A stretch of DNA of 21,871 nt from a virus, in the IMG/VR virus record IMGVR_UViG_3300009593_000143, positions 1-21,871 of that record. One strand, written 5' to 3'. The position numbers were made by a program, and so were the translations under genes. Below are positions 4,179 through 21,871 of the stretch, in pieces; position 1 is the first letter of the stretch; every line of letters begins with the position of its first letter. The notes under the pieces are model-generated. The model did not search any database. It worked only from the letters and a program-made list of their open reading frames with translations, and was not told the origin of the DNA.

Positions 4179-7040
4179 TTAGTCATCAAAAGATGCGCCA
4201 CTGCGAAGAATAGTAAAATCAATCGCAATATACTCGGCAGTTCTTGTTGGTTTCAACAAAACCTTAGCATACATGATATTTCTATCAACTAAGTCTGCTG
4301 TAGTCGTTGAGTCGTCCAAGACAACCTTAAAATCTGTTAGACCGAAGTCGTTCTTGATTTGCTCCAAGAATGGATTTGCCTGACCTGTGAATCGATCCCA
4401 TGTTGCCTGAACATTTGGAGTGAATAACAAAGTGGAAGCAATTCTTGAAATGCCCTTCTTAACGTGAATCATTAATCGACGAACGTTAATTCTGTCAAGT
4501 GCCGAAGGAGTAGTTTGAAGTGTCTTTTGACCGAACACTACAATACCTTCTGCTGGGAACTTAGCAATCGGGTTTACACTTCTCTCATAGAGTTTATCTC
4601 TATCTTTTCTTGAGAGTTGCTCACGAACACCGACGACAGGGATACCTGCTGCTCCATCAGTCAACCCACCTCTGGTGAATCCTGCTGGTGCGAACCAAGG
4701 TGCTGCTTTCTTGTCCGTTGTTGAGAAAGTGCCTAATGCTGCTACTGAAGGTGGCATCCATACTAAGGAACCTGCTCCAGAAGTGTCTCTCACTTGAACC
4801 CAAGGGTGGAATGTACAAGCATAACTCGTATTCAATCCACGATTCTTTAAGTTACTAATGATACTATCCGTAGAACCCTGTCTTGCTGAAGCAGCAGAGA
4901 TGGATTCGTGGAGTGGTTCATAACCACCTGGTAGGTCGATAACGGCAAGTGCGTCACCTCTTGATTCACATGTAGTGATCAAGTGGTCAGTAATGCTCGT
5001 GTTCGTGATACCTGGAATGGATGCGAGGTTCATCTCGACAACTTCCGAATCTGAAACAGTATCGATTGCTCTCTTCATCGAGTAGAAAGCAGAGTTTGTT
5101 TGTTCTGTTGCACTACCTAGACCTGAGTTTCTAAAAGGATCTCTTTCTTTAATGTCGAGTCCGTCTGCACCACCGAAAAGTGGCATAGTAAAGGAATCGA
5201 AACCTGCGTCGAGGACAGATGTGTATGAACCAAAGTTCGTGCTACCTGCTGGTGCCCTTGAAGAGTTACAAGCAGTGATTGAGTTTCCTGCTACTCTCGA
5301 ACCTGCGAAATAAACACCATGAGATGTGATTCCGTTTGAGGCAGATACATAGTGAACGTCATCTAACGAGAAAGTAAACTGATAATCCATGTTTGATGCT
5401 GCACCGTTAAAAGAATCATAGCTGCTTGGTTTTGCTCTTAGCAAATCAAGGTTACTCTTCTCAAACTGGTTTGTCGTTCTCTCTGTAGAATCAAAACCGA
5501 AGTATGCGGCAGCTGCGTCTGTCAACCCACCAGCAGAACTAGATGTTCTTAATGCTACTTTTGGGAAAGTTGCTGTGATGGCATTAAGTTGACAGGACAA
5601 AGTTCCTGTGATAACCAAATCCACACCGTCTCTGTTTCCACCACCGATGATGGTTTGAGCAAGACTGTCGGCAGCAACAAGAGTTGTTCCTGTCATGGTT
5701 TCTCCACCAGTTCCACCGAAAGTAGTTGACTCCAACATTGTTGGACCCTTAAAACCGAAAGGAAGACTCAATGGGTTCAAGGAACCATTTGAAGTTTTTT
5801 CTGCCAACTCGACTCTGATGTAGTTAGACTGATTATTGTAATCTCCATACACCTTAAATCTCTTCTTGTCATCATCCCAAGTTCTGTACTTGTCTCCGAT
5901 CTTCTTAGCAACATAGTTTGCTGAGTTTGGATTCAAGTTACACCCTGTGAATGCTTCTAAGATCTTAACGTCACCGTCATGATCCTTCATGTTACGAACG
6001 ATAACAGAGAATGTTCCGTATTCGTCGTTAGTAGGATCTAGGGATGCTTTGATGTCTGCGATTGATACCTTAACACTTCTCTGGACTTCTTCACCTTCAT
6101 CAAGTGCGACGAGTTTGAAGAGACTCTCCATTGAAGCTGCTGAGTAACCTGCATTGTTAGTTGTCAAATCTTGTGCGATAACCCAACCTGACTGAGCAGC
6201 AGTTACTGCTCTTTCTGCAACGTGACCGTTGGCGATTGGGAGGACAAATGCGAATGCTTTGCCTGAATCTGCGTTTGATGCTCCGCAAGAGTCATAAACA
6301 CTTCTCTCGAACGTTTCGCCCAAGAAGTAATCAGATTTTGCTGTGTTGATCGCACCTAATAAGGTAGGATCTGTGTTAAAAACTTTTCTAATATAGAGGT
6401 CTGAGTTTGGATTTAAGTTAAATGAGGAAGTAAGGGTTGCTGATGCACCTTTCCCGATCACTGCTTTAAACTGAAAATCACCACCACTGCTCTTTACAAC
6501 TGTACCTGCACCGTCACCACCTGCTTGACCACTTGGGTAGTTTCCTTGTAGTTTGACGTATCCACCGTCAAGATACCAGACTGCTGCGAGTGTTGCCGTT
6601 AGGGTATTCGAACCTGAAGGCATTACGAATAGACCGTAAGCTCCACCATTCGCTGTTGCGTCACTACCTGGGGCGGTGACTGCCCAACCTGCTGCACCTG
6701 CGGAGGTTGCGTTTGGATGTTTTGCACCCAACAAACGAACTACCGTTAGAGCATTTGAATTCTTTAACCATGCTTGTGCAGCATAGCTAGCATACATAGG
6801 GGAAGTTCTATTCCCACTTCTCCATACATCTCCAGTCTCACCTCCAGCAACGGGACTTCCAAATACTGCCTCAAACTCTGCCATTGAGGAAACTTTAACT
6901 GGTTTTAGTCCTGGACCTCTGAGGGTTCTTCCGATGACTACTGGACCGATATCCTGTGGGGTTTTTGGGAGTTGGGAGTTATCGATTTCGTCGAGAAATA
7001 CTCCGGGGGATACAAACTTAAATTTTCTTGAATCTGCCAT
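4179..7040 (-). CDS. 18: Tail sheath protein, T4 gp18-like, oversized
   Basis: This gene encodes 953 residues from the ATG at 7038-7040. A TTG two codons upstream is too close to the AAGGAG (7051-7056) to be the start. The N-terminus has the sheath hallmark KFVSPGVFLDEIDNSQLP followed by GPVVIGRTLRGPG, and a later segment reads YASYAAQAWLKNSNALTVVR. The conserved C-terminal part runs from about 690 and includes WFAPAGFTRGG, RDKLYERSVNPIAKFPAEGI, VFGQKTLQ and NVRRLMIHVKKGI, ending with the last strand YIAIDFTILRSG. T4 gp18 has 659 residues, so about 300 more are present, mostly between about 110 and 640, probably as surface-exposed insertion domains. Sheath subunits contract around the tube to drive it through the host envelope. 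Confidence 0.93.
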   Translation of the reverse strand: MADSRKFKFVSPGVFLDEIDNSQLPKTPQDIGPVVIGRTLRGPGLKPVKVSSMAEFEAVFGSPVAGGETGDVWRSGNRTSPMYASYAAQAWLKNSNALTVVRLLGAKHPNATSAGAAGWAVTAPGSDATANGGAYGLFVMPSGSNTLTATLAAVWYLDGGYVKLQGNYPSGQAGGDGAGTVVKSSGGDFQFKAVIGKGASATLTSSFNLNPNSDLYIRKVFNTDPTLLGAINTAKSDYFLGETFERSVYDSCGASNADSGKAFAFVLPIANGHVAERAVTAAQSGWVIAQDLTTNNAGYSAASMESLFKLVALDEGEEVQRSVKVSIADIKASLDPTNDEYGTFSVIVRNMKDHDGDVKILEAFTGCNLNPNSANYVAKKIGDKYRTWDDDKKRFKVYGDYNNQSNYIRVELAEKTSNGSLNPLSLPFGFKGPTMLESTTFGGTGGETMTGTTLVAADSLAQTIIGGGNRDGVDLVITGTLSCQLNAITATFPKVALRTSSSAGGLTDAAAAYFGFDSTERTTNQFEKSNLDLLRAKPSSYDSFNGAASNMDYQFTFSLDDVHYVSASNGITSHGVYFAGSRVAGNSITACNSSRAPAGSTNFGSYTSVLDAGFDSFTMPLFGGADGLDIKERDPFRNSGLGSATEQTNSAFYSMKRAIDTVSDSEVVEMNLASIPGITNTSITDHLITTCESRGDALAVIDLPGGYEPLHESISAASARQGSTDSIISNLKNRGLNTSYACTFHPWVQVRDTSGAGSLVWMPPSVAALGTFSTTDKKAAPWFAPAGFTRGGLTDGAAGIPVVGVREQLSRKDRDKLYERSVNPIAKFPAEGIVVFGQKTLQTTPSALDRINVRRLMIHVKKGISRIASTLLFTPNVQATWDRFTGQANPFLEQIKNDFGLTDFKVVLDDSTTTADLVDRNIMYAKVLLKPTRTAEYIAIDFTILRSGASFDD

Positions 7041-7050
7041 TTTCAACTTT

Positions 7051-7129: not shown

Positions 7130-7945
7130 TCACACTTTCTTTATGGTCTTCTCGGATAGAATTGTCTTCTCTCCAGTTATTTTAATCTTGGCTACACCCT
7201 CTTGCTTGAGGATTTTGGGAGAATCGTCATTAGAATCCTGACCGTACAAGTAACCTAACACATTGATAGTTATTGATGTTTGATAAATTCTTTCTTCCTG
7301 TTCGACGGCAGAGATATTATTGTCGAAAGAGAAATCAGATTGGACGAATGCTTCGTAGTGATGTCCGTCTTTTTCTATTAGAAAACTGTTTATATTCCCT
7401 GTCTTAGTCATGAACGGTTGTAGTATCTCGTTCATCTGTTGTTGATACTCTGTTCTCAAAGTTATTAAGTAACTCATATCAACATATGTTGGAGTTTTTA
7501 TGAAGTAAGACTGTTGGACGACGTTGGGGTTGTTGAATCGAAAGTTGTCCTGCTTAAATGTTTTCTTAGAGTTTGTATTTGCAAAATTTGCCGTCTTATC
7601 TTGCTTTATCTCACCATGAGTGTATAGTGTGAAATTGTTATGCTTATTTATTGGAGGCAAATATGCTTGTAGAGATCCACGACGTGCTGCGTCTTTGTTC
7701 ATCGCAGTTCTCTCAACGGAGATTACTGGGAAAATTAGAGATCCTTCTGAATCTCTTAGTTCTTTCCTGTTCTTGATCTGGAATGATCTTTCTCCACTGA
7801 CCCATATCACGGGAACCTTTTTAAATCCCTTGTTAGTGGTTGCATGGATATCCATTGATTTGTCTACCCACTCATAGAGAGCAAAATCAACTGTTTCTAT
7901 CCTTGAAGGTTCGAGTGTTAAGACACTATCTTGTTTTTTTGTCAT
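7130..7945 (-). CDS. 15: Tail completion / sheath terminator protein, T4 gp15-like
   Basis: This gene encodes 271 residues, almost exactly the length of T4 gp15 (272). The pattern FKKVPVIWVSGERSF followed by FPVISVERTAMNKDAAR parallels the KFIRVPITYASKEHF region of T4 gp15. The C-terminal half has the helix YLITLRTEYQQQMNEILQPF and then strands ending in SITINVLGYLYG, matching T4's order of features. gp15 caps the finished tail as a hexamer and docks it to the neck. The ATG at 7943-7945 is 12 bases after the stop of the preceding gene and has only a weak Shine-Dalgarno (AAGA), so translational coupling is likely. The neighbours on both sides are neck and sheath genes, which supports the call. 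Confidence 0.82.
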   Translation of the reverse strand: MTKKQDSVLTLEPSRIETVDFALYEWVDKSMDIHATTNKGFKKVPVIWVSGERSFQIKNRKELRDSEGSLIFPVISVERTAMNKDAARRGSLQAYLPPINKHNNFTLYTHGEIKQDKTANFANTNSKKTFKQDNFRFNNPNVVQQSYFIKTPTYVDMSYLITLRTEYQQQMNEILQPFMTKTGNINSFLIEKDGHHYEAFVQSDFSFDNNISAVEQEERIYQTSITINVLGYLYGQDSNDDSPKILKQEGVAKIKITGEKTILSEKTIKKV

Positions 7946-7957: not shown

Positions 7958-9391
7958 TCAACTAGCACTAAACGGGCTCTTGAACCAAACTCCATTTTCG
8001 TTAAAGTAATACTTGTTTTCTATAGAGAAAGGTCCGACTGCGGTATCACCAGCATTGGACAGGTAGATAACTCTCCCTGAGAAGGAGCCTGAGTTTGTGT
8101 GGAACCCTGTCAAGATTGCACGATCTTCAGTGTTAGCACCGTTGAGGTGAAGGATGTCGTGCAAATCGGGCATTTCCACACTTGCGGTAGTAGCAATAAC
8201 TGGATTGTTACTAAAGAATGGACTTGGGTGCCATGTCCCATTTTCGTTAAAGTAGAATTTTCTAGGAATCTTGAAAGAGGCAACAGGACTTGATCCGGTG
8301 GATGCAAGATATATGATCTTACTAGAATAACTACTTGCACTAACATGGTAGTTGTTCAATAGTGCCCGATAAGTTCCTCCTGGTCCGTCGTCGGCAATAG
8401 TGAGAACACCGTTACCTACGGATATGATCGTATCTCCACCGCCACCACCTGCTCCAAGCAGTGCCCACGATCCGTTTTGATAAAACTGAAATGCGTTTGT
8501 TGAAGTGTTGTATATCATCATCCCGTTAGTTGCAGAAACCGAGTTTCTTTGGGCTGTGGTCATTCTCGGTATCACCACCCCTCCCGTTGTGGACGTAACT
8601 GTTAGACTGCTTCCGTCAAAAGTCAAATTTGACTCTCCTTGTAAAGTTGTCCCGTTGACTCCCGTTATGATCCTGTTGTCTGCGGCAGAATTAAGAGTAA
8701 TGTCACCCCCTCCAGATCCTGTCACATCTACTGTCATTTTTCCGACATATAGAAACCCTCTAGCATGGGTTGGGACTCGATCATTTCGGTAATCTTGTAA
8801 AAAGATGATACCACTATAATAATCTATTTGCCAATCTGTTTCATCTAATGACGTAATCTCGTTCGTTGCATCGGTCGGATCACCTTTATAGAGTTTTAGG
8901 AAGTAGGGGTTTGCTCCTTGGTTTGAGAAATTGGGAGGAATAAGTTGAACCTTACCAAGTGTCTCATAGACAACCTTGTCGTCATCATAATACCCATTGC
9001 CCTTACTTGTGTTACTGGAAAGTGCTTCATAGTTTCCGGTCATTACGAGTTTGTATCCATGAGTACCGGCTGCGGTTGCTTCGTCACCACCACCAAAACC
9101 CACGCTGCCGAAAGTACCAGTGTTGGCATCATACGAAGTTCCACCGATTGGTTGAACTATAAAATCAACATACTCCACAGTTGTTGGAGAACCCACAGAG
9201 GCACTCTGAAGGAGATATAGGGTTAGTGCTGGGTTGTCTGGAATGCTTTGTCCAAAGATGGTTTGCGAAGAAACCTGTATATTGGACGGAATTGCTTCTT
9301 GAGCATCAGACTTGAGGTTTGATGTGTGTGCCCTTCCTAATAATTTCTTTTGCGAGAAAAGAGTTGCTGTTAGATTAGTTTTTCCTGCCAT
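7958..9391 (-). CDS. Virion surface protein with tandem FYFNENGxW modules
   Basis: This gene encodes 477 residues from the ATG at 9389-9391, with only a weak ribosome binding site nine bases after the upstream stop. The N-terminal 220 residues form a folded, Tyr- and Asp-rich domain (KKLLGRAHTSNLKSDAQEAI, later TDWQIDYYSGIIFLQDY), probably the virion-binding part. Residues 225-310 look fibre-like and include PRMTTAQRNSVSATNGMMIY, a motif common in phage tail-fibre-type proteins. The C-terminus carries two copies (about 343-394 and 425-474) of a module ending in KFYFNENGTWHPSPF or KYYFNENGVWFKSPF. The same module ends the protein encoded at 20301-21871. Gly-rich linkers separate the parts. Its place between neck and gp15 suggests a neck or collar appendage. 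The exact function is unknown. Confidence 0.8.
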   Translation of the reverse strand: MAGKTNLTATLFSQKKLLGRAHTSNLKSDAQEAIPSNIQVSSQTIFGQSIPDNPALTLYLLQSASVGSPTTVEYVDFIVQPIGGTSYDANTGTFGSVGFGGGDEATAAGTHGYKLVMTGNYEALSSNTSKGNGYYDDDKVVYETLGKVQLIPPNFSNQGANPYFLKLYKGDPTDATNEITSLDETDWQIDYYSGIIFLQDYRNDRVPTHARGFLYVGKMTVDVTGSGGGDITLNSAADNRIITGVNGTTLQGESNLTFDGSSLTVTSTTGGVVIPRMTTAQRNSVSATNGMMIYNTSTNAFQFYQNGSWALLGAGGGGGDTIISVGNGVLTIADDGPGGTYRALLNNYHVSASSYSSKIIYLASTGSSPVASFKIPRKFYFNENGTWHPSPFFSNNPVIATTASVEMPDLHDILHLNGANTEDRAILTGFHTNSGSFSGRVIYLSNAGDTAVGPFSIENKYYFNENGVWFKSPFSAS

Positions 9392-9400
9392 ACTCTATAA

Positions 9401-12400
9401 CTATGATCCATATACAAAAGATATTCGAGACAAATATCCCGTCCAGTCTTTGTGTGCGGTTATTCTTATTACTAAATAGTCTGCATCACCCCCCGAAGTG
9501 CCGTTTAAGGTTGCAGTTCGAAAGTTTATGCCGTAAGCAGTGCCATCTGCATCGACAGTTTGGTTAACGTCGTTGCCTCCTCCGTTGAATCCACCGACAT
9601 CGTTTATCACATTCTCTGAAACCGATGCAGGTCTGGCAAGGTCTAACCAACCTGTGTCTCCTGGTATCTTTACTTCGCAATGAATGTTCTTATTTGCTCC
9701 TGGTGATCCAGTGTTGAATGCTCCACCTTTTGCGACGAGGTTGGCATCACCATACAGAGTGACAGTTGCCAAAGAGACATCTCCAACATTATTAGAACGA
9801 AAATATCTATAATACTCCCTCGTTGCGGTGGAAAGGGAAGAGTAGTTGGGATTTCCTGTTGGTGCCTGTAGTTGTCCTGAGTTTGCTACTGATCTATAAT
9901 CTCCGTTTAGTCCACCTTTTGCGGGGGAGACAAGACGACCACTGTAGATAGACAATCCGTTGGAGTATGTTGCGTGTGATCCCACATCGTTGACACTCAC
10001 TGTGGAGTTCCATTTGTTGCCAGCATTAGTGACACTTGCTTGATTTACATAGGAACCTGATTGAAGTCTATACTTCTCACCATCCATAGGTTCATTGATG
10101 TTTATATTCCCAGTCTCACTGCCACTGAAAACCAAGAAACTATGCTTGCTCAATGTTGAAGTGGTCAAGTTTGACTTTATCGGATGTTTCACCCTTGAAC
10201 TTACAGATGCAGTGTGGGAAACAGATGCGTGGGCTCCTACTAAAGACGTTGCTGGATCGAAAACTATTGTTCCTGTCACAAACATCACTTGTGCTTCGGA
10301 GTTTGCACTTGTTGACAACGAAGGTATTGCCTTGGTTGCTCCATTGGTTGTGCCTGGTGATGCAAGTCCAGTGCCATTGGTTGTTATTTTTGTCGCTGTT
10401 GTGTTCGTTGTCGTTGGGAAACTTATGCCATCACTCGATCTGTAATATACGTTGCGGTGAGCATGTGATACTATATATCGATAAGATGAAGAGCATGCCG
10501 TGAAATATCTAACACCCGACATGGAATAGAAGGAACTTCCGGAGAAATCATCGATAGTGAGTTCGGTTGCAGCAAGAGCATTGCTGTCGGGATCGTTCAC
10601 CCACTCAACATAGTTAGTTACAGTTTGTCCGATTGTAGATCCCGAGTGTATAACCCTTGCATAGTTCCATCCGGTTCTCTGATCTGCTGTTCCTACTTGA
10701 TATTTTCCTGTTCTATAAGTTTTTGTATAATCTGGTAAGTTGTTGGACGCATACTTTCCTGCATCAAAAACACTCAAACTTACAAAACCAGAACCATTTC
10801 CGTTTACTTCCGAATCTGTACCGGAGCCAGGATTGCCTGCACCGACGGAGTTGCTAGTTAGGTCGATGCTGTGAACGACTGCTCCATTTACTTCAAGTTT
10901 TAGATTACCGAGGGCACCGTTTCTGAAAGAGTTGGCAACATAACTTGGAGTATTTGCATTAACATCTTCATTTAGTTCTCCGTCGATGACGACGGAACCG
11001 TTGAACACACCTGCGATGTCTCCACTGTCTAGGAAGTTTCCGTTTACGTCGATTGCAGAGTTTCCTGTGCCTGTGCCAACGTTAGTGTATCCAGATACTG
11101 CCTTGGAAGAACCGAAAGATAGCTTTACATCCTCTCCGTTATCGTTGATATCAACATCGTCGAGGGCAGGTGCTTCGGAGGGTGTTGCTCCCGTTCCAGC
11201 ACCAAAGGATACGGTGATGTCGTCAACATATCCAGTCCAAGATGTGTTCGACTCCACCTTCAAAACAATATCGTCACCATTAGCAACACCCTTTGTGCCA
11301 AATGACATATAATTGGTAGCATCTACTGAATTGTCAAAGTTCAAAACATATGCTCCCGATCCGTTTGATGTGCTGTCGTATGTAAATGCCTGTGCCACGT
11401 CCATCCAACCTGTAGTTCCTGGTATCTTTATGAATGCTTTTATTCTACCTGAGTTTAGTGCTGTTCCTTCTGGAACTATTGTAGTGGAACTTCCTTCGAT
11501 TGTTAAGACAATATCTCTTTTGGTTGCTCCGGTGGAGTTTCTAAAATATCTATAGAATGTTCTCAATCCAGACACACCAGAATAGTTCGGGTTTCCAGAT
11601 GGTGCTACACCTAGTGGTCCACCTTCACTATCGTCACGGAAGTCACCATTGTTGAGGGTTGCGAGTGGAGAATAGAGTCGAGCATTATAGAACTGCAATC
11701 CATCAGAATGATTTCCACCACCAGTCATGTGAGTTTGTGAGTTCCAAGTTCCACTATCGACATCAGATTGTGCGTTATACGATCCCGATGCTAGACGATA
11801 AGTTTCTGCCTTGAATCTCTCTCTTAGTGCGGTTGAGTTCCCTGCGATGTTGTAAACGAGAAGACCTGTTAGGTGTGCTGTTCCCGCATTACTAAGATCT
11901 GACTTGAGTGGGTGGGCAACATTGACCTTTGATGTTATAGTTCCACTGAGGAATGTAGTCCCTGAAGATGTTGCACTTCCTGTAATGCTCAATACTTTTG
12001 TCTCATCTTCTCCTGCCCCTGTGTTTAGTGACGGAAATGCTTGTGATGAAATTGCACAACTCGTGTTCGTAAATGAGATATTCTGTGTCGTATATACATT
12101 CCTGTATGCGTTGTTGACATCAACGAGATAGTTTGCCGAAACTGAAGTGAAGTATTTTACACCGGAGAGATACTTTGCTCCTGATCCTGCTGCACTTGCG
12201 AACCTCGCATTTGTAGCAGTAAGGGCATTGCTGTTATTGTCATTCACCCACTGGACATGGTTTGTTGTTTTAAGTCCCCAAGATCCTGAGTGTTTCACTT
12301 CTGCATAGTTCCACCCGTTTCTCTGATCTGCTGCTGCGACTTTGTAATCTGCGGTTCTGTGTTGGAAGATGCTAAACGCATTCTGACTTCTGTCTTGTGC

Positions 12401-15400
12401 TGAAGACGTAGTTGATACATTGAAGAATCCTGATCCGTTGCCGTTGAGGTGATTACCTGTGCCACTGCCTGGATTTCCAGAACCGATAGAGATGGAGGTT
12501 AAATCTATGCTGTGTAGCAATGCTCCATTTGCGAACAACTGAAGTGCCCCAGATTCTGCATTACCAAAAGAGTCGGCAGGGTAGTTTACAACATTATTGT
12601 CATATGTGTCTGTTGCGATATGAAAGTTCACCTCTCCATTGATCAGGGTAGCTCCGTTGAACGTTCCTCGGCGAAGGTTGTTACCAGAATTCTGTGCTTG
12701 ACTCGTATCATTAACGTTCAATCCCGCAAACTCATCGTGAGTTGTTACATTTGTATATCCAGATATGGTGTTTGCCGCACCGAATGATAGTTCAGCAGAA
12801 ACTCCTGTGTCTGCACAATCTATTCTCGAAACATCAGGTGCTGGTGATGGTGCAAGTATTTTTAGAATCTCATTGAACCTATCGATAGAAACACCAATAG
12901 AAGTGGTACTTGTGAAGTCTGTAAAAAGACCGTCGGCATAAGATCCATCTTCTGCGTTCCCGATGGTTGTAGTTCCTCCACCTCCTCCGGTGGAAGAGAT
13001 AGTTATTTGACCACTAGAACCTGTCACTAGAGTAACATTAGAACCTCCAATGAGGTAGGGATTGCCGTTTCTGAGTTTTGTCAATGAACCTGTCAAACCA
13101 GTGGCAATGAGATTACCAACCGTTACATTGTTTGTTGTTGTGGACCCGTTGTCAGTTACCTGATCTAGTGTTGATGCTGTTGAGATTCCGGTAAGCTTAG
13201 ATCCGTCACCGTAGAATGCTGATGCTGACATGTTTATCGATGCAGACAAGTTTCCGATGATCGTGGCATTACCTGTATGAGAACCATCCCATTCTGCTGT
13301 TATTCCCGTCAAACCTGCACCACTACCTACAAAAGATGTTGCAGTGATCGTGGCAGAAGATGAGAGGTTGCCTTGTATAGTTGCATTACCTGTGTGACTA
13401 CCATCCCACTCAGCAGTGACACCAGTCAAGTTTGATCCGTCACCATAAAAGGATGATGCAGATATGTTCAGGGATGCTGACAAACTTCCGACACTGAGTG
13501 CGTTTGTTGTTGTTGCTCCATTCTGAGTAACATAATCTAGTGTAAAATCTGTTGCATGCTTTGAATCTACAGTGTTTGCGTCAGCTGCCTGAGCAACTGT
13601 TCCTACAATGTTGCCAGCTGCGAGATTCGTAAGGGCTGCACCGTTTCCGACAAACGTTGTCGCAGTTATTTGAGCCGAAGAAGACAAGTTTCCTACAATA
13701 GTTGCATTACCCGTATGACTTCCATCCCATTCCGCTGTCACTCCCGTTAAACTAGATCCATCTCCGATAAATCTTGTGGCAGTTATTACTGCTGATGAAG
13801 AAAGGTTGCCCTGTATGGTTGCATTTCCAGTATGGCTTCCATCCCATTCAGCAGTAACACCTGTAAGATTAGATCCGTCACCATAGAAAGAAGATGCCGA
13901 TATGTTCATCGATGCTGATAGACTTCCCACTGCTAAGCTGTTGTTGGTAGTATATCCATTAGACGTAACGTAATCTAAATTGAATTGGGCAGCATGTTTT
14001 CCGTCGAGGGTGTCTGCATTTACTGCACTGGTGGCATTGGCAACTGCACCGTCTACATATGCTCCAGCAATATATGATGCTGTTTGGGCATGAGATGCTG
14101 ATAATGCTGATGCTACACGGCCATCGACGTAGGTTGCTGCAATGTATGAAGCAGTTTGGGCATGAGATGCAGATAATGCTGATGCGACACGACCATCAAT
14201 CTTGGATGCTTGTACATAGGATGCAGTTTGTGCTGTGACGGCATTTGTTGCATTAGCAATAGCTCCCACAATGTTTGCCGCAGTTAGGTTAGTGAGGTTT
14301 GCACCGTTTCCAGTAAAAGATAGAGCAGACATTCCCAACGAAGAACTAAGTGTTCCTTGTATGGTTGCATTTCCGACGTGACTACCATCCCACTCAGCAG
14401 TGACTCCGGTGAGGTTTGATCCGTCACCATAAAATCCCGATGCGGATATGTTCATTGAAGCAGATAAGGTGGAAACAGATAGGGCTGTGGTGGTGGTGGC
14501 ACCTCTTGCGGTGATACTCTGTAGTGTATCCTTTTCTGCATAGTAACTTGCTGTTTGTGCAGTCACCACATAAGATGCTGTCTGTGCTGTTACCGCATTA
14601 GTCGCATTGGTTGCTAATGCGACGGTACCGTTGACATTAGAACCGAGAATGTAAGATGCTGTAAGGGCATTTGTTATAGTTCCAGTAAGGTTTGCAGAAG
14701 ATGCAATTGTAATTGTGTTGGTGCTGGAATCTAAATCAATGTTACTACCTGCAACAAGGGACTTGAACTGTAGTTCTTTTCCTACCTTCTGAGAGAAGAC
14801 TCCTTCTCCTCCTCCGATGTTACGACCAGTATTGACTTCTCCGTCTGCTGTCACAAAATTGGCATTGTCACACAACTCTGTGGAAGTCATGTCTATAATC
14901 TTTCCGTCTACTTTTTGTTTTGCTAACCTAAATACACCTTCTCTAGATCGAATACATGTTGCGACGATTTCAAACTTCTGATCCACTTGACCATAAAGTT
15001 GTCGAGGTTGACCAACTGTTGTGATTTCGTAAAGAATCTTGCCGTATAGAACAAAGTCACCCTCTCTTACAAAGAGGTTCTGATCTTCTGCCAGTCGTCT
15101 CTTGTGAAACCTTACTGTAATCTGCGATCTTCTGTCTATTCCGAGATTTGTATAGGTTGTATCCGAACCTTCCCAAGATACTGCGGCAAAGATCCTCATC
15201 GGAGGTAGGAAGGTTTTCTTTACTGCCTCTCCATAAAGATCGTGAAAGTTACTGTGTGTTACACTTACGGGGAAATAGACGACTTGCTGACCGATTACTC
15301 GTTCTAACAACTCATCTCCGACTTGCTTTACTAAGTTTGTCTCTTTTTGCCCTGTGAAGAGTGGTGGCGGGGGATTTAATGGACGTTTGGATATTTCGTC

Positions 15401-16021
15401 ACATACCGCAGGGGTATCTCCCGAACCTCCTGTAGAGGTTCCTGTGCCGTCTAAGACATTAAGTTCATTTATGGGGTCACAAGGGGCAGCAGTTAGTCTT
15501 GGATCGTCTTCATCAGATTGTACCTTCTTTTGTTCTGGAAATACTCCGTCTCTTGCCCTAATACACGTTGCTACGATTTCGATTTGACTGTCTACTTGAC
15601 CAAATAGGGGTCTTGGTTGCCCAAGTGCTGCAATCTCATAAAAATGAGTGCCATATAAAACAAAGTCTCCCTCTCTTACGAAAAGGTTTTTGTCTTCCGT
15701 TATCCTTCTTTTGTGAAAGTGGATTGTTATAGAAGACTTCTTGTCTATTCCAAAATTATTTGTAGTGGTTTGTTCTTGTTCTCTCTCAACATACGCACTG
15801 ATGTGAACTGGTGGCAGAAAACTCTTGTTTACAGCTTCTCCATAAAGGGAGTGATAGTTGCTGTGCTTCAGACTGATGGGATAGTAAACAACCTCCGACT
15901 TTATGACTCTTTCAGTGAGTTCATCGGTGACTTGTTTTACAAGGTCTTTTTCTTTTTGGCCCGTAAACAACGGTGGTGGAGGTGCTTCCGGTTGTTTCCA
16001 GACGTTATCGTTATCTGACAT
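9401..16021 (-). CDS. Giant neck-fibre protein: two tandem gp14-like domains fused to fibre repeats and duplicated C-terminal modules
   Basis: This gene encodes 2206 residues from the ATG at 16019-16021, with GGAGG five bases upstream overlapping the gp13 stop. Residues about 16-165 and 218-365 are two diverged copies of a T4 gp14-like neck domain; each has LFTGQKE, YHSLYGEAV or FHDLYGEAV, FLPP, FHKRR, NLFVREGDFVLYG and EIVATCIR. T4 gp14 has 256 residues and no fibre. Residues about 420-960 are low-complexity, fibre-like repeats (FYGDGSNLTG, AEWDGSHTGNATI, AQTASY). Residues about 1064-1610 and 1615-2206 are a large duplicated module, each copy with a GWNYA core, YRYFR and a terminal WTGY. The context (gp13 before, gp15 later) supports a neck location. 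It probably builds the gp14 ring and projects a fibre from it. The receptor and oligomeric state are unknown. Confidence 0.85.
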   Translation of the reverse strand: MSDNDNVWKQPEAPPPPLFTGQKEKDLVKQVTDELTERVIKSEVVYYPISLKHSNYHSLYGEAVNKSFLPPVHISAYVEREQEQTTTNNFGIDKKSSITIHFHKRRITEDKNLFVREGDFVLYGTHFYEIAALGQPRPLFGQVDSQIEIVATCIRARDGVFPEQKKVQSDEDDPRLTAAPCDPINELNVLDGTGTSTGGSGDTPAVCDEISKRPLNPPPPLFTGQKETNLVKQVGDELLERVIGQQVVYFPVSVTHSNFHDLYGEAVKKTFLPPMRIFAAVSWEGSDTTYTNLGIDRRSQITVRFHKRRLAEDQNLFVREGDFVLYGKILYEITTVGQPRQLYGQVDQKFEIVATCIRSREGVFRLAKQKVDGKIIDMTSTELCDNANFVTADGEVNTGRNIGGGEGVFSQKVGKELQFKSLVAGSNIDLDSSTNTITIASSANLTGTITNALTASYILGSNVNGTVALATNATNAVTAQTASYVVTAQTASYYAEKDTLQSITARGATTTTALSVSTLSASMNISASGFYGDGSNLTGVTAEWDGSHVGNATIQGTLSSSLGMSALSFTGNGANLTNLTAANIVGAIANATNAVTAQTASYVQASKIDGRVASALSASHAQTASYIAATYVDGRVASALSASHAQTASYIAGAYVDGAVANATSAVNADTLDGKHAAQFNLDYVTSNGYTTNNSLAVGSLSASMNISASSFYGDGSNLTGVTAEWDGSHTGNATIQGNLSSSAVITATRFIGDGSSLTGVTAEWDGSHTGNATIVGNLSSSAQITATTFVGNGAALTNLAAGNIVGTVAQAADANTVDSKHATDFTLDYVTQNGATTTNALSVGSLSASLNISASSFYGDGSNLTGVTAEWDGSHTGNATIQGNLSSSATITATSFVGSGAGLTGITAEWDGSHTGNATIIGNLSASINMSASAFYGDGSKLTGISTASTLDQVTDNGSTTTNNVTVGNLIATGLTGSLTKLRNGNPYLIGGSNVTLVTGSSGQITISSTGGGGGTTTIGNAEDGSYADGLFTDFTSTTSIGVSIDRFNEILKILAPSPAPDVSRIDCADTGVSAELSFGAANTISGYTNVTTHDEFAGLNVNDTSQAQNSGNNLRRGTFNGATLINGEVNFHIATDTYDNNVVNYPADSFGNAESGALQLFANGALLHSIDLTSISIGSGNPGSGTGNHLNGNGSGFFNVSTTSSAQDRSQNAFSIFQHRTADYKVAAADQRNGWNYAEVKHSGSWGLKTTNHVQWVNDNNSNALTATNARFASAAGSGAKYLSGVKYFTSVSANYLVDVNNAYRNVYTTQNISFTNTSCAISSQAFPSLNTGAGEDETKVLSITGSATSSGTTFLSGTITSKVNVAHPLKSDLSNAGTAHLTGLLVYNIAGNSTALRERFKAETYRLASGSYNAQSDVDSGTWNSQTHMTGGGNHSDGLQFYNARLYSPLATLNNGDFRDDSEGGPLGVAPSGNPNYSGVSGLRTFYRYFRNSTGATKRDIVLTIEGSSTTIVPEGTALNSGRIKAFIKIPGTTGWMDVAQAFTYDSTSNGSGAYVLNFDNSVDATNYMSFGTKGVANGDDIVLKVESNTSWTGYVDDITVSFGAGTGATPSEAPALDDVDINDNGEDVKLSFGSSKAVSGYTNVGTGTGNSAIDVNGNFLDSGDIAGVFNGSVVIDGELNEDVNANTPSYVANSFRNGALGNLKLEVNGAVVHSIDLTSNSVGAGNPGSGTDSEVNGNGSGFVSLSVFDAGKYASNNLPDYTKTYRTGKYQVGTADQRTGWNYARVIHSGSTIGQTVTNYVEWVNDPDSNALAATELTIDDFSGSSFYSMSGVRYFTACSSSYRYIVSHAHRNVYYRSSDGISFPTTTNTTATKITTNGTGLASPGTTNGATKAIPSLSTSANSEAQVMFVTGTIVFDPATSLVGAHASVSHTASVSSRVKHPIKSNLTTSTLSKHSFLVFSGSETGNININEPMDGEKYRLQSGSYVNQASVTNAGNKWNSTVSVNDVGSHATYSNGLSIYSGRLVSPAKGGLNGDYRSVANSGQLQAPTGNPNYSSLSTATREYYRYFRSNNVGDVSLATVTLYGDANLVAKGGAFNTGSPGANKNIHCEVKIPGDTGWLDLARPASVSENVINDVGGFNGGGNDVNQTVDADGTAYGINFRTATLNGTSGGDADYLVIRITAHKDWTGYLSRISFVYGS
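9404..12832 (-). repeat. Tandem C-terminal modules of the neck-fibre protein
   Basis: Two modules of about 550-590 residues (residues 1064-1610 and 1615-2206) align over their whole length. Shared landmarks in the same order are LSFG, SGYTNV, a NG-rich turn, HSIDLTS, GNPGSGT, NGNGSGF, ADQR.GWNYA, HSGS, NALxAT, GNPNYS, YRYFR, IPG.TGW and a final W-TG-Y. The copies differ strongly in detail, so the duplication is old. They are likely beta-rich distal domains of the fibre, but I recognise no named family. Confidence 0.8.
9473..9480 (-). promoter_or_regulatory. ACTATTTA motif inside the end of the neck-fibre gene
   Basis: This copy lies within the last codons of the 2206-residue gene (encoding part of DYLV) and 81 bases before the ATG at 9391. 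The ten-base context ACTATTTAGT equals that upstream of the sheath gene. It could serve the downstream surface protein gene, or be a chance consequence of coding. Confidence 0.3.
13187..14434 (-). repeat. Fibre repeats: F-x-G-x-G-x-x-LT and AEWDGSHTGNATI
   Basis: About eight copies of a short unit of the type FYGDGSNLTG occur here, at residues about 530-945 of the neck-fibre protein. Five of them are followed by GVTAEWDGSHTGNATI or a one- to two-residue variant and a short Ser-rich link. Interspersed are AQTASYIA-YVDGRVA units. At the DNA level the copies share stretches such as CCATCCCA with mostly synonymous changes around them, which points to selection on the protein sequence. Confidence 0.85.
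14927..15370 (-). repeat. Second gp14-like neck domain
   Basis: This stretch encodes residues about 218-365 of the neck-fibre protein. It repeats the order of motifs in residues 16-165: LFTGQKE, VVYFPVS, DLYGEAV, FLPP, FHKRR, LFVREGDFVLYG, GQPR, EIVATCIRSREGVF. A Pro-rich segment (NPPPPLFTGQ) restarts the unit exactly as in the first copy. Confidence 0.82.
15527..15976 (-). repeat. First gp14-like neck domain
   Basis: This stretch encodes residues about 16-165 of the neck-fibre protein, with the motifs LFTGQKE, VVYYPIS, SLYGEAV, FLPP, FHKRR, LFVREGDFVLYG, GQPR and EIVATCIRARDGVF. The order of features (YYP near the start, a conserved Phe-Gly with hydrophobic strand, EGD before a Tyr or Phe strand) parallels T4 gp14. 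Confidence 0.8.
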
Positions 16022-16030
16022 CTAAACCTC

Positions 16031-17281
16031 CTATCCGACGAATATGCTTAGTGGTATCTTTTTCTGAATAGTACTGACATTATCGACCAAATCGGCATCA
16101 CCCTCCATGAGTTTGCCGTAAGTCATTTCATCTAGGATTGTTTTTAGTTCATCCCTTAGTTGGTTCTGCTCTTGTTGCGATTGGGCAATAAGTTCTGGTC
16201 CATTGAGAGTCACTGACTCTCCAGGAATTGGGATGTTTCCGAACTTCCCCCTGATGTGACCAAGTGTTTCCTTGCACAAAGAGAGAGCAAATCTTCTGAT
16301 CCACTGTTTTCCTATCGAGTTTATGTTGTGGTACGGAACATTGTCAAAAGGAAGTGTGTTCATATTGTTGATACCGTCTAGTCCAACATCCATGTTATCC
16401 GTTGTTGTCCAAGAATCTCCAGGAATGGAAAACTGGACCCACATTTTTGTTATAACGGATGTGTGCGGAACTGGAAATAGTCTTAGTTTGTTGTTCTTTA
16501 ATTCAAAAGAATAGTGACTCGTTCTAGTATAGATGTTGTCCTCGTAAGACATTGCTTGTAGTTTATTCTGCCATGACGGAACTACTTCGAAAGTAGAGTC
16601 ATCAGCATATTGTCCATAGGTTGACATGTTCCCAACTACACCGATGCCACCATAATATCCATAAAATCTCCACATAGCATTACTCGTTTTGTAGTAAACT
16701 TTCTTTACGAGAACTTTTTTATTGCCAACTGATCCAGAAAACTCCGGATTAGTGGATATCAGATCTTGTAAATCATAGTCTTGTCTTCCACTTGTGATGT
16801 CGAAAGATGCTGAATATACCGTATTGTTTCCTCCGACGTTTGCGTCTTCAGAAATGCCATCGGCAACCCTTCTTGCATATGCAAAGTCAAAAGATGGATA
16901 CTTTAGAGACACATGAGTGCCAGCAAGACTTGACGATAGTGGTCCGGAAAGCATTTCCCCTTTATGATTAAAAGAACCAGTTGAGTTACCAAGTACATCT
17001 GAAAGAATGTTCTTACTTTGGTGTATGTTTATTAAATATGAATACTCCAAACATGCTTCCTCGTAAGCAGAATAGACATTTTCTTCTCTAAGTTCAATGT
17101 CGAGAACATCACCTCCAAGTTTCCTGTAGACGTAAGTTACCTGCGATAAAGCACCTGATATGAAGTGGTCAGACTGGTATGCTCCTGTAGCCAATGAACT
17201 GAGAACATTTGTTGATGTCCCTGTGACTGGGAGAACAGAAACACTGGTTCTGCTTTTGGGGGTGAGAGTAGGTAATGCCAT
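16031..17281 (-). CDS. 13: Neck / head-completion protein, T4 gp13-like
   Basis: This gene encodes 416 residues from the ATG at 17279-17281, with GGAGG ten bases upstream. The helical N-terminal part (VTYVYRKLGGDVLDIELREE, then SAYEEACLEYSYLI) and the C-terminal helix KETLGHIRGKFGNIP with IPGESVTLNGPELI resemble head-tail connector proteins that dock onto the portal. The middle is aromatic-rich (MWRFYGYYGGIGVVGN). It is longer than T4 gp13 (309). It starts the transcript after the capsid terminator, and its stop overlaps the ribosome binding site of the gp14-like gene, so the two are coupled as expected for proteins that form one neck. A more general head-tail adaptor is the alternative reading. 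Confidence 0.78.
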   Translation of the reverse strand: MALPTLTPKSRTSVSVLPVTGTSTNVLSSLATGAYQSDHFISGALSQVTYVYRKLGGDVLDIELREENVYSAYEEACLEYSYLINIHQSKNILSDVLGNSTGSFNHKGEMLSGPLSSSLAGTHVSLKYPSFDFAYARRVADGISEDANVGGNNTVYSASFDITSGRQDYDLQDLISTNPEFSGSVGNKKVLVKKVYYKTSNAMWRFYGYYGGIGVVGNMSTYGQYADDSTFEVVPSWQNKLQAMSYEDNIYTRTSHYSFELKNNKLRLFPVPHTSVITKMWVQFSIPGDSWTTTDNMDVGLDGINNMNTLPFDNVPYHNINSIGKQWIRRFALSLCKETLGHIRGKFGNIPIPGESVTLNGPELIAQSQQEQNQLRDELKTILDEMTYGKLMEGDADLVDNVSTIQKKIPLSIFVG

Positions 17282-17394: not shown

Positions 17395-19107
17395 TTAACC
17401 AGCAAAGTCTTGGATAAGAACTAAACCATACATGTCAGGACGTACCATCTGCTTCGCATAACGAGTCATGACACCTTTTCTTGGTACGAAATCTTCTGTA
17501 CCAAAAATGGTTGGTGTAACTTGTAGTGGGACATAAGGAGCATAGACATATCCACTTTCGAGGAAGCTGCTACCTTTACGGCCAACTAACACTACGTTGC
17601 GTGGGAAGTAAGGATCTACATAGATTTCCAACTTTCCACTCAAACTACCAACATTGACTGCACCAGCAGTACCTTTGTCAGCATCAACTTCTACTTTTGC
17701 TTTGAATCCAGCAGTGAACTCAAGGATGTTAGCTGCTTCAGGTGAAACCACGATGAAGTTAGCACCACCCTTTAAGGTCTTGCGATGGATGTTAGCAGAT
17801 ACGTCGTTGATGGTTTCGAGAAGAGTCTCGTACCACTCACTAACAGTACCAGTGAAGTCACCACCGAACAAACTTCCGTCTGCATCGTCAACTTCGATAG
17901 TTGAACCAGTAGTGCGGTCTACAAAACGACCAGGACGACGTGACCAATGCATGGTGGATGCCTTAGCACCTTTTACCAAATCACCCAAGATTTCTTGGTC
18001 GATTTCCAAACCGATATGCTCGGAAAGGACGTTAGTCAATTCGACTTCAGCATCGAGGTTGTGATAAGCATTCAAGTCTTGTCCTAATTCTGGAGTCCAC
18101 TTTGCTTTCAACTTACGAGTCTGAGCAGTAACAGCAATGCTGTCTACCTTGATGTCGATCTCAGGAATGTCTACGTTCTTGTAGTCAGTTGCCTGAGTGT
18201 CAGTGCCTTCAAGACCCCACGGGTCAGCACCTTTAAGGGCACCAAGAGCAACACCACTCGAAGTCAATCCGTCAGTGGAAGCAAAAGTCAAGACTCTTGA
18301 ACCTGCGGAATCGGCAACACCAGTAGTATGTGCAACGATGATACTCAAGTTACCAGCAGCAGTCAATTTCGTCAAACGACGAATCAAAGTACCACCTGCA
18401 AGTGCAGACTCAACAGTAACGAGGTTACTTTGGTCCAATTTTGCAGGAATGCCTGCTTTGGCAACGGTGAATTCACGAACGTGAGTGTAAGGTGAACCAG
18501 ACAATAAGTCAGGATCATGATCCAATCTTGCTTTATGAGAAGCAGACAAGGACGTAATTGGTACTGAAGTGTTAATAGTTCCTTCGTTACCAGTGTTTGC
18601 AACAGTAGCAGTTGCGGAACCGGTAGCTGCGGAGTAACCTTGGTTCAGACTGTACATACCTTTTTCAAGGTTAGTCGTTGACAAGTCAACACCATCAGTA
18701 ATACCTTTAGCAACCTTACCACCACCGTAGATGGAGTTATTGGCATCACCAGTTGGGCCTAATCGGTCATTATCAGTCTTGGTAAAATCCAAGAAGAAGA
18801 TGAGGCCGGAAGGCAAACTCATAGGTTGTACTGAAACTAATTCATTAGCAATCAAACCACCGAATACACGACGGACGATTGGAAATGCAACTGCTGCGAA
18901 ACCTTCTACATCACCTTGTGACATAGCAGATGCTTCGCGAAGCAATTCTTTTGCTTGGTTTTCAAGCAAGGTTGACATGCAATCTTTTTGACGGTCAGCA
19001 AGACCCTCAAGAAGACCAGATGCCTCCCATTTGGTACGGATAGCAGCTCCCTCAGCGGAGAGGTTGCGATCTACAATACCTTCTGTTAATTTTTCTAAAA
19101 TAGACAT
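17395..19107 (-). CDS. 23: Major capsid protein, T4 gp23-like
   Basis: This gene encodes 570 residues (T4 gp23 has 521). The ATG at 19105-19107 follows AGGAG. The segment LIANELVSVQPMSLPSG at residues 85-101 matches the gp23 pattern LIAFDICGVQPMNSPTG, and the C-terminal YVYAPYVPL and a following TRYAKQMV region match the family ending. Residues 1-58 form a charged helical N-arm of the kind removed during maturation; LRE at 56-58 followed by Ala-Ser fits the T4 prohead protease rule, hydrophobic-x-Glu before the cut. That would leave a mature chain of 512 residues. The gene lies just after the scaffold and is closed by its own hairpin terminator, suited to a very abundant product. The identification is firm; the cut site is inferred. 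Confidence 0.94.
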   Translation of the reverse strand: MSILEKLTEGIVDRNLSAEGAAIRTKWEASGLLEGLADRQKDCMSTLLENQAKELLREASAMSQGDVEGFAAVAFPIVRRVFGGLIANELVSVQPMSLPSGLIFFLDFTKTDNDRLGPTGDANNSIYGGGKVAKGITDGVDLSTTNLEKGMYSLNQGYSAATGSATATVANTGNEGTINTSVPITSLSASHKARLDHDPDLLSGSPYTHVREFTVAKAGIPAKLDQSNLVTVESALAGGTLIRRLTKLTAAGNLSIIVAHTTGVADSAGSRVLTFASTDGLTSSGVALGALKGADPWGLEGTDTQATDYKNVDIPEIDIKVDSIAVTAQTRKLKAKWTPELGQDLNAYHNLDAEVELTNVLSEHIGLEIDQEILGDLVKGAKASTMHWSRRPGRFVDRTTGSTIEVDDADGSLFGGDFTGTVSEWYETLLETINDVSANIHRKTLKGGANFIVVSPEAANILEFTAGFKAKVEVDADKGTAGAVNVGSLSGKLEIYVDPYFPRNVVLVGRKGSSFLESGYVYAPYVPLQVTPTIFGTEDFVPRKGVMTRYAKQMVRPDMYGLVLIQDFAG

Positions 19108-20300: not shown

Positions 20301-21871
20301 TTACTCTTCAGCTGCGGTAGCAAATGGTGACATATGCCAGACACCTTCTTCGCAGAAGTAGAACTTGTTACCAACATCAAAGTTGTTTACAGCTCTTGCA
20401 GTGTTAGCACCTGTGTTCAAAGCACCGTCTCTTGAGGAGGTAGTATGCATTGCTGACAAGACATAGACCATGTAACCATCATAATGACCTGCTGCGAGAG
20501 CAGTTGCATCAGACAAATCGCACATGATGTCCTGACCTTCGTTGGATAATCCACTAATCTTTGCCAACTGGAGTGATCCACCTAGACGGACATTTTGACG
20601 ATAGTCAATAAATCCACCATGTTCTGGATTACCTAGTTGTGCAATAGTAGAGTTTGCTGCACCTCTGACATGAAGTCCCTTGGTTACACCTAGACCACCA
20701 GCAGTTAATAAACTACCAGTAATAGCACCAGTGCCCATAGTTGCTTCAGTGGTGTTGCCGAAGGTATAAATACCTGTGGCAGTCTCATTCTGATCCAACC
20801 TTGCGATGTTAGCAGCATCTGCCAACTTATCGAAAGCAATCGTTCCATCAACAATCGAAGCATTAACAACTGCGTTTGCTGCGAGTTGGTCTGCACCAAC
20901 AGCATCATCTGCAATCATTGCTTGCTCAACTGCGTCATTTGCGAGAGTCAAAGCACCGTTGGATGCTACAGTAGCATCACCGGAAACCTTCGCGAAGATA
21001 TATGTTGGAACTCTAGACATTGCGGATTTTCTATTTGTGCCACCTGCACCGTCGTCAACGAGGAACAAGTCAGCATCAGCAAGAGCAGCACCAATATCGG
21101 TACTTCCGTCGATGTCAAGTTTATCTGCTTTGAGTGAACCGTCAGTTACGGAAGCATTAACAACTGCGTTGGAAGCAAGTTGATCAGCACCGACTGCATC
21201 GTCTGCAATCATTGCCTGCTCAACAGCATCATTAGCAATCGTCAAAGCACCACCGCCAGCAACCGTTGCGTCTCCAGAGATATTACCAAAGATCTCATCT
21301 TCCAAATCGGAAAACGTAATCTTCTTCTCGGTTCCACCATCGGAAATCAAGAAATGGTCATTAGTCTGATGAAGATTACCAACGTCACTTAGTGCAGACA
21401 AAGTATCAATGTTCAAACTCAGAGTAGAACCGGACTTTGCAAGACCTGCTCCAGCAGTGATTGAACCTGCACCAGAGAACTGTCCCCATGCTACGGCAGT
21501 CGTACCCATAGTGATAGCACCATTTGTAGTCATCACAAAACCGTTATCAGCATTAGTAGTACCCTCTTCGACGAAAGTAAATGCACCTGCGGTTAGTTCA
21601 GTTGTTGTGTCTGCATCTGTTGCTCTTGTCAAGACAAAAGCAGCACTTCCATCAGCACCAGCATTAGTTACTGTGTAGATGCCGTTTTGGGCAGCAGTAG
21701 ACTGATCCTTGATGAGAAGTCTATCACCACTAACAACTGCTACGCCGTCGATGCTCAAGGCACCGTTTGCGTCGGCAGTCAAAGTTGCACCAACACCAGA
21801 AGTTCCATTAGCATAAGTACATGCCGCAAGAGCTGCTGTGGTTGCAAGATGAACAGAATCCTTAACATCTA
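20301..21871 (-). CDS. Repetitive virion surface / fibre-like protein (N-terminus beyond right edge)
   Basis: The frame is open to the right edge. A TTG at 21780-21782 is internal: upstream codons continue in frame (DVKDSVHLATTAALAACTYA) and are typical of phage fibre-type proteins. About 522 codons are visible. The N-terminal part has SIDGVAVVSGDRLLIKDQ and NGIYTVTNAGADG, a common motif set of tail-fibre-like proteins. Two tandem units of about 95 residues each carry FLISDGG or FLVDDGA, SGDATV, and NDAVEQAMIADDAVGADQLA. The C-terminus has KFYFCEEGVWHMSPF, matching the modules in the protein encoded at 7958-9391. The gene ends at its own terminator, just before the scaffold gene. It could be a head fibre or another exposed structural protein; location on the virion is unknown. 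Confidence 0.82.
   Translation of the reverse strand, partial: DVKDSVHLATTAALAACTYANGTSGVGATLTADANGALSIDGVAVVSGDRLLIKDQSTAAQNGIYTVTNAGADGSAAFVLTRATDADTTTELTAGAFTFVEEGTTNADNGFVMTTNGAITMGTTAVAWGQFSGAGSITAGAGLAKSGSTLSLNIDTLSALSDVGNLHQTNDHFLISDGGTEKKITFSDLEDEIFGNISGDATVAGGGALTIANDAVEQAMIADDAVGADQLASNAVVNASVTDGSLKADKLDIDGSTDIGAALADADLFLVDDGAGGTNRKSAMSRVPTYIFAKVSGDATVASNGALTLANDAVEQAMIADDAVGADQLAANAVVNASIVDGTIAFDKLADAANIARLDQNETATGIYTFGNTTEATMGTGAITGSLLTAGGLGVTKGLHVRGAANSTIAQLGNPEHGGFIDYRQNVRLGGSLQLAKISGLSNEGQDIMCDLSDATALAAGHYDGYMVYVLSAMHTTSSRDGALNTGANTARAVNNFDVGNKFYFCEEGVWHMSPFATAAEE

Follow-up and report, generated by a model that had tools for sequence, protein, structure and literature searches.

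What might a phage protein do that carries the same neck-like domain twice and then continues into a very long fibre? The question is raised by a 21.9-kb IMG/VR virus fragment (21,871 nucleotides, analysed over its whole length and called the window here). The window contains a T4-like structural gene cluster on its minus strand, with genes for the major capsid protein, gp13 (Ad2), the fusion ORF of interest, a fibre-associated protein (fib2), a probable gp15, and the sheath, tube and hub (Table 1). Phage appendages must fit rings of 12, 6, 5 and 3, and a single chain that holds both a putative ring domain and a fibre bears directly on this problem.

The original prediction placed two tandem copies of one domain, at residues 16-165 and 218-365, in a single polypeptide, and this tandem duplication is confirmed. 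The segment concerned, 14927-15976, corresponds to residues 365-16 of the minus-strand ORF at 9401-16021. BLASTP of one half against the other gives 113/199 identical residues (57%, E=4e-80), and a shuffle test agrees: the alignment score for the two residue ranges is 522, compared with 29 +/- 5 (maximum 52) for shuffled sequences (n=500). At the DNA level, copies A and B are 68% identical. The landmark motifs quoted in the prediction are found in both copies, exactly or with one or two substitutions; YGEAV, FHKRR and NLFVREGDFVLYG are identical in the two. Because 23 other IMG/VR contigs have the two-domain layout as well, the duplication is not an assembly artefact. Coding on the plus strand at 14927-15976 was ruled out by the many stops in the frame read.

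The spacing of the two domains is also regular. From the end of domain A to the PPPP of domain B, the A-B linker measures 52-55 aa in 18/18 two-domain sequences measured, and the linker after B is likewise 52-55 residues, so that both are near constant in length. The A-B linker (15371-15526) is strongly conserved despite its predicted disorder. A Cys-Asp/Glu pair follows domain B at the same offset as in the A-B linker, and an hhalign comparison of the tail after A with the tail after B did not support homology beyond the shared Cys-Asp at equal offset.

Table 1. Features of the window, by descending coordinate.
Feature	Coordinates	Strand	Evidence or remarks
Major capsid protein gp23	17395..19107	-	phrog_138, E=2e-70
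gp13 / head-tail adaptor Ad2, upstream neighbour	16031..17281	-	phrog_211, E=1.9e-10; tblastn match to gp13 of T4-like phages
gp14-like + fibre fusion ORF, 2206 aa	9401..16021	-	two neck stopper domains (predicted), then long fibre
gp14-like domain A, residues 16-165	15527..15976	-	N-terminal helix + beta barrel (predicted)
A-B linker, residues 166-217	15371..15526	-	low pLDDT; motif CDP(I/V/L)xxE(I/L)xVL in most members
gp14-like domain B, residues 218-365	14927..15370	-	BLASTP to A; predicted fold
B-fibre linker + first fibre module, residues 366-450 (GEGVFSQKVGKELQFKSLVAGSN..ITI)	14672..14926	-	module also in annotated tail fibres
Fibre shaft, residues 451-1057	12851..14671	-	FYGDGSNLTG / EWDGSH / AQTASY repeats; PF06598 repeats
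Fibre tip module copy 1, residues 1058-1608	11198..12850	-	36% identical to copy 2, E=2e-95
Fibre tip module copy 2, residues 1614-2206	9404..11182	-	similarity to copy 1
fib2, fibre-associated protein, 477 aa	7958..9391	-	downstream of fusion ORF
YFNE module copy 1 in fib2	8216..8392	-	first of a tandem pair
YFNE module copy 2 in fib2	7970..8146	-	second of a tandem pair
Probable gp15 / tail terminator, downstream	7130..7945	-	synteny; weak profile match to T4 gp15
Tail sheath gp18	4179..7046	-	phrog_23, E=3e-67

Are the two domains gp14? In T4, as had been stated at the outset, gp14 is a single-domain protein (256 aa, one domain per chain), and its layer of the neck is sixfold: a hexamer that sits on the gp13 dodecamer and gates the DNA (PMC12270204). 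The type 2 neck gene order is Ad2-Hc2-Tc2 (PMC4362835). The fusion ORF follows the same order, flanked by gp13 and by the probable gp15 (assigned by position and a weak profile match), and both of these neighbours are ordinary-looking. An AF2 model of residues 1-400, of moderate confidence, has a mean pLDDT of 58, with values of about 65-80 within the domains and disordered linkers, and predicts a helix followed by a beta barrel, twice; its pTM of 0.35, for the single chain, means that the inter-domain geometry is low-confidence. In a Foldseek search of the PDB with this model, the best match is T4 gp14 (9mkb, E=2.3e-7), and the next-ranked matches are almost all phage neck stoppers, about 20 of them, with those of Pam3, phage 812 and E217 among the first. 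VIA-align superposes both halves on phage stoppers, reaching a maximum Z of 10.8 (rmsd 4.1 over 123 residues), and on T4 gp14 at Z of 8.6-9.2. Thus, the claim that both units are gp14-like holds by predicted fold and by position between gp13 and gp15, while sequence-only HMM comparisons support it weakly. The best match to phrog_679 (head closure Hc2) has E=9e-4, matches occur in 4/30 family members, and copy A of the window reaches only 0.06; an hhalign comparison of the domain family with T4-type gp14 gives a co-linear alignment (E=0.0016) whose probability, 16%, is low. A Pfam search of both halves found no neck family, and PDB sequence searches with domain A, the domain family and the whole chain found no significant relative. 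In two ~190-kb two-domain contigs, whose completeness is uncertified, the two domains of the fusion are the only gp14-like ones. If these contigs are near complete, the fusion must perform the job of gp14, because there is no other gp14-like gene to do so. Assignment of the ORF as a putative phage head-closure stopper (gp14/Hc2) protein is well supported by predicted fold and locus together.

The two-domain form belongs to a group of uncultivated marine T4-like phages. IMG/VR scans identified 24 contigs in which two domains are visible, the window included; 19 of these have complete ORFs (617-2479 aa) and five are cut at one end, and three more contigs end inside the domains. A C-terminal fibre is present in 19/19 complete two-domain ORFs, and the gene order in two-domain contigs is gp13 - fusion - (fib2) - gp15 - sheath - tube - hub. 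A single stand-alone domain is found at the equivalent locus in about 75 close relatives (ORF of about 163 aa, in the order gp13 - 163-aa gp14 - gp15 - sheath) and in 82 more distant Mel-JY01-type relatives (about 177 aa). The 484-kb phage LR756508 also has a stand-alone single gp14 domain (187 aa; E=8e-32 to the family profile); a scan with it as the query returned a single near copy. A separate lineage of four contigs (L059, L234-L236) joins one gp14 domain to a YFNE module of ~60 aa, lacks a shaft, and is a possible intermediate architecture. In these contigs (L059:110-1162, L234, L235, L236), a separate 80-82-aa YFNE ORF follows the gp14-YFNE fusion, and gp15 comes next. Both the 163-aa gp14 (L008-L081) and gp14-YFNE share the domain and the locus with the window chain, but have one domain and no shaft. 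In one single-domain clade (L128:12974, L139:12138, L142:12920), a 1238-1436-aa fibre-like ORF lies between gp15 and the sheath gene; no similarity of this ORF to the window fibre was detected.

In the sampled contigs, fusion to a shaft goes with two domains and shaftless fusion goes with one. How much weight can this pattern bear? In the tree, the A copies form one clade and the B copies another (support 100/98), indicating one old duplication. Since the two-domain form has one origin, the contig counts are not independent events, and the link between duplication and shaft amounts to a single evolutionary association and one lineage that contrasts with it. The two copies are near-equally constrained: compared in pairs, A copies share 78% identity on average and B copies 81%, and 60 columns are conserved in 95% or more of the single-domain proteins, of which A has kept 49 and B has kept 51.

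Beyond domain B, the chain is a fibre. The first fibre module matches the tail fibre protein of Pseudomonas phage Rollin (E=4e-8) and, weakly, the tail fibre protein of Agrobacterium phage Atu_ph07; PDB sequence searches with this module and with the L121 fibre found no significant relative. The distal fibre (9404-12850) is also a tandem duplication, of a ~560-aa tip module at 36% identity, and this module is apparently single copy in the uncultured huge phages LR756500-LR756508. Across two-domain members, the fibre part ranges from about 250 to 2100 aa and the tips vary. Neither of the two ~190-kb contigs yielded a match to the window tip module, which is compatible with exchangeable tips. 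In LR756508, about 140 kb away from gp14, a 703-aa gene of its own encodes a relative of the tip, and a fib2-like gene comes next; the fibC homologue and the fib2-like N-terminus are adjacent unfused genes. This arrangement suggests a fibre unit that was already complete when it came to lie beside gp14 and was fused to it.

The fib2 gene lies downstream of the fusion, and in many relatives its C-terminal part, a pair of YFNE modules, is joined to the end of the gp14-fibre chain. The YFNE module is ~60 aa long and C-terminal, with the consensus ..Y.GRAIYLS.TGS..VG.F....KYYFNEGGVWH.S.F. A tandem pair occurs in nearly every two-domain locus and ends either the gp14-fibre chain or the next gene; examples are at 7970-8392 (fib2) and at the C-ends of L005, L103, L105-L107, L109, L111-L115 and L121, and L101 has one copy. 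The pair has a confident AF2 model, for which neither the PDB nor BFVD yielded a fold match at E<=0.001. Upstream structural ORFs of the two-domain group (20301-21869 in the window and L003:1-4710), with PHROG matches of head decoration or fibre-like type, also terminate in a single YFNE-type module. If three two-domain chains do form the neck ring (see below), the paired distal YFNE modules may echo its two-per-chain logic.

How could two stopper domains and a fibre work together? The gp14-type stopper has been duplicated in tandem, and its C-terminal end now continues into what is probably a neck fibre. Three chains would most likely form a ring, with the gp13 dodecamer on one side and the gp15 hexamer on the other, in which the domains alternate A-B-A-B-A-B, such that three chains would supply both the six ring domains and the three fibre strands. 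The three C-termini would leave the ring through the ~50-residue linkers and merge into one trimeric fibre beside the neck, and this fibre would probably be an adhesin or a whisker-like appendage with exchangeable tips. We infer three chains per ring, a trimeric fibre, one fibre per virion and an adhesin role; none of the sequence and structure matches proves that the fibre is trimeric. If the ring is about as wide as the T4 tail tube, 90 angstrom (PMC3004832), C-termini 120 degrees apart would be separated by some 80 angstrom, which the ~50-residue linkers could span. Because the ring encloses the DNA channel, a trimeric fibre must be off-axis, single and asymmetric. Such an appendage is unusual, and is the geometric weak point of the model. 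Trimer-to-hexamer symmetry matching, as originally proposed, is plausible, and is now better supported, though indirectly, because the doubled domain occurs only with the shaft, both copies are conserved, and no other gp14-like gene was found in two ~190-kb relatives. Taken as a whole, the reading in which three two-domain chains form a pseudo-sixfold stopper ring that anchors one trimeric neck fibre has about an even chance of being correct.

Other arrangements of the same chain have to be weighed. The T4 gp14 ring is built from six separate chains (PMC12270204), and the ring of the fusion protein could also contain six, with one domain (A or B) in the ring and the other outside it or in a second layer; the ~50-aa flexible linkers would let one domain hang free. 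The fibre parts would then assemble as two trimers or stay as six single-chain fibres. An unused domain would be expected to decay or vanish, however, and a domain has been lost in 0/19 complete fusions. Both copies retain most of the residues conserved in single-domain proteins, including those of the N-terminal helix, which contacts gp13 in T4, and the gp13 and gp15 neighbours have an ordinary appearance. Six chains per ring, with either type of fibre, are unlikely.

It is also conceivable that the ring has three chains and the fibre parts do not make one trimer, either running separately along the neck or tail or pairing with fib2. The domain, locus and conservation data also fit this arrangement, and it has no off-axis problem, since three fibres at 120 degrees preserve threefold symmetry. 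Phage fibres are generally trimers, however, and here the first fibre module is also present in phage proteins annotated as tail fibres and the shaft is repetitive and glycine-rich, as in phage fibres. Separate fibres are rather unlikely. A duplication with no role in symmetry, i.e., an old tandem copy in a lineage that also gained a fibre, would agree with the single origin in the tree, which makes the co-occurrence statistically one event, and with the other tandem duplications in the cluster (tip module and YFNE module). It is improbable, given that both copies are similarly strongly constrained and are never lost while fibre length varies, and that the shaftless fusion lineage stayed single. 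Cleavage between A and B, with free A and B-fibre as ring subunits at 1:1, would have a conserved and predicted disordered linker as its target, but is very improbable, as in T4 the neck is added to a head that has already matured and been packaged, when the prohead protease is gone.

The three-chain ring with one trimeric fibre can be compared with several known systems. First, T4 gp14 (Hc2; PDB 9LU4-9LU7, 9MKB) shares the fold, the gp13-gp15 locus and the presumed ring on the gp13 adaptor. The T4 protein has one domain per chain, six chains, a ~80-aa gp15-binding C-terminal arm and no fibre, whereas the window chain has two domains and a C-terminal fibre. Second, the T4 baseplate hub gp27 is a trimer with a pseudo-sixfold torus and has been called a symmetry adjuster (PMC3004832). 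It has two related barrel domains per chain, as does the window ORF, and its trimeric torus adapts a trimeric spike to the sixfold baseplate. Unlike the putative neck ring, gp27 occupies an axial position at the tail tip; its two domains share only 4% identity, and another protein forms the spike. Third, the tube domain of T5 pb6 is tandemly duplicated, and its rings are trimers in a stack that also contains hexamers (PMC11784142, PMC9022992). A normally hexameric ring domain is doubled within the chain in both cases, giving a trimeric pseudo-sixfold ring in T5, although pb6 belongs to the tail tube rather than the neck and has no fibre. Having two ring-domain copies per chain where relatives have one is thus shared with proteins of the gp27/pb6 type. 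Fourth, the T4 fibritin (wac) whiskers and the A-1(L) neck fibres gp82-81-80 are neck-anchored fibres. Fibritin, a coiled-coil trimer, comes from a separate gene and binds gp13 non-covalently, and gp82-81-80 come from separate genes and bind non-covalently to a pentadecamer; in contrast, the window fibre is in the same ORF as the stopper and is covalently part of it. The symmetry trick is known elsewhere (T4 gp27, T5 pb6). A search of a literature library found no paper describing a duplicated or fibre-fused neck stopper.

What are the implications for these phages? Known neck adapters are separate proteins; here the adapter is apparently within one gene, as a doubled ring domain plus a fibre. 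The single-domain relatives, the shaftless fusion and the 19 complete fused versions together provide a comparison set. The architecture also suggests a direct mechanical link from a surface fibre to the DNA gate. A more far-reaching proposal is that the genome gate is a C3 pseudo-hexamer of three two-domain chains with a covalent fibre, single and off-axis; this is tentative and falls somewhat short of an even chance. If it is true, the pull or binding of a single off-axis fibre could pass directly to the DNA gate.
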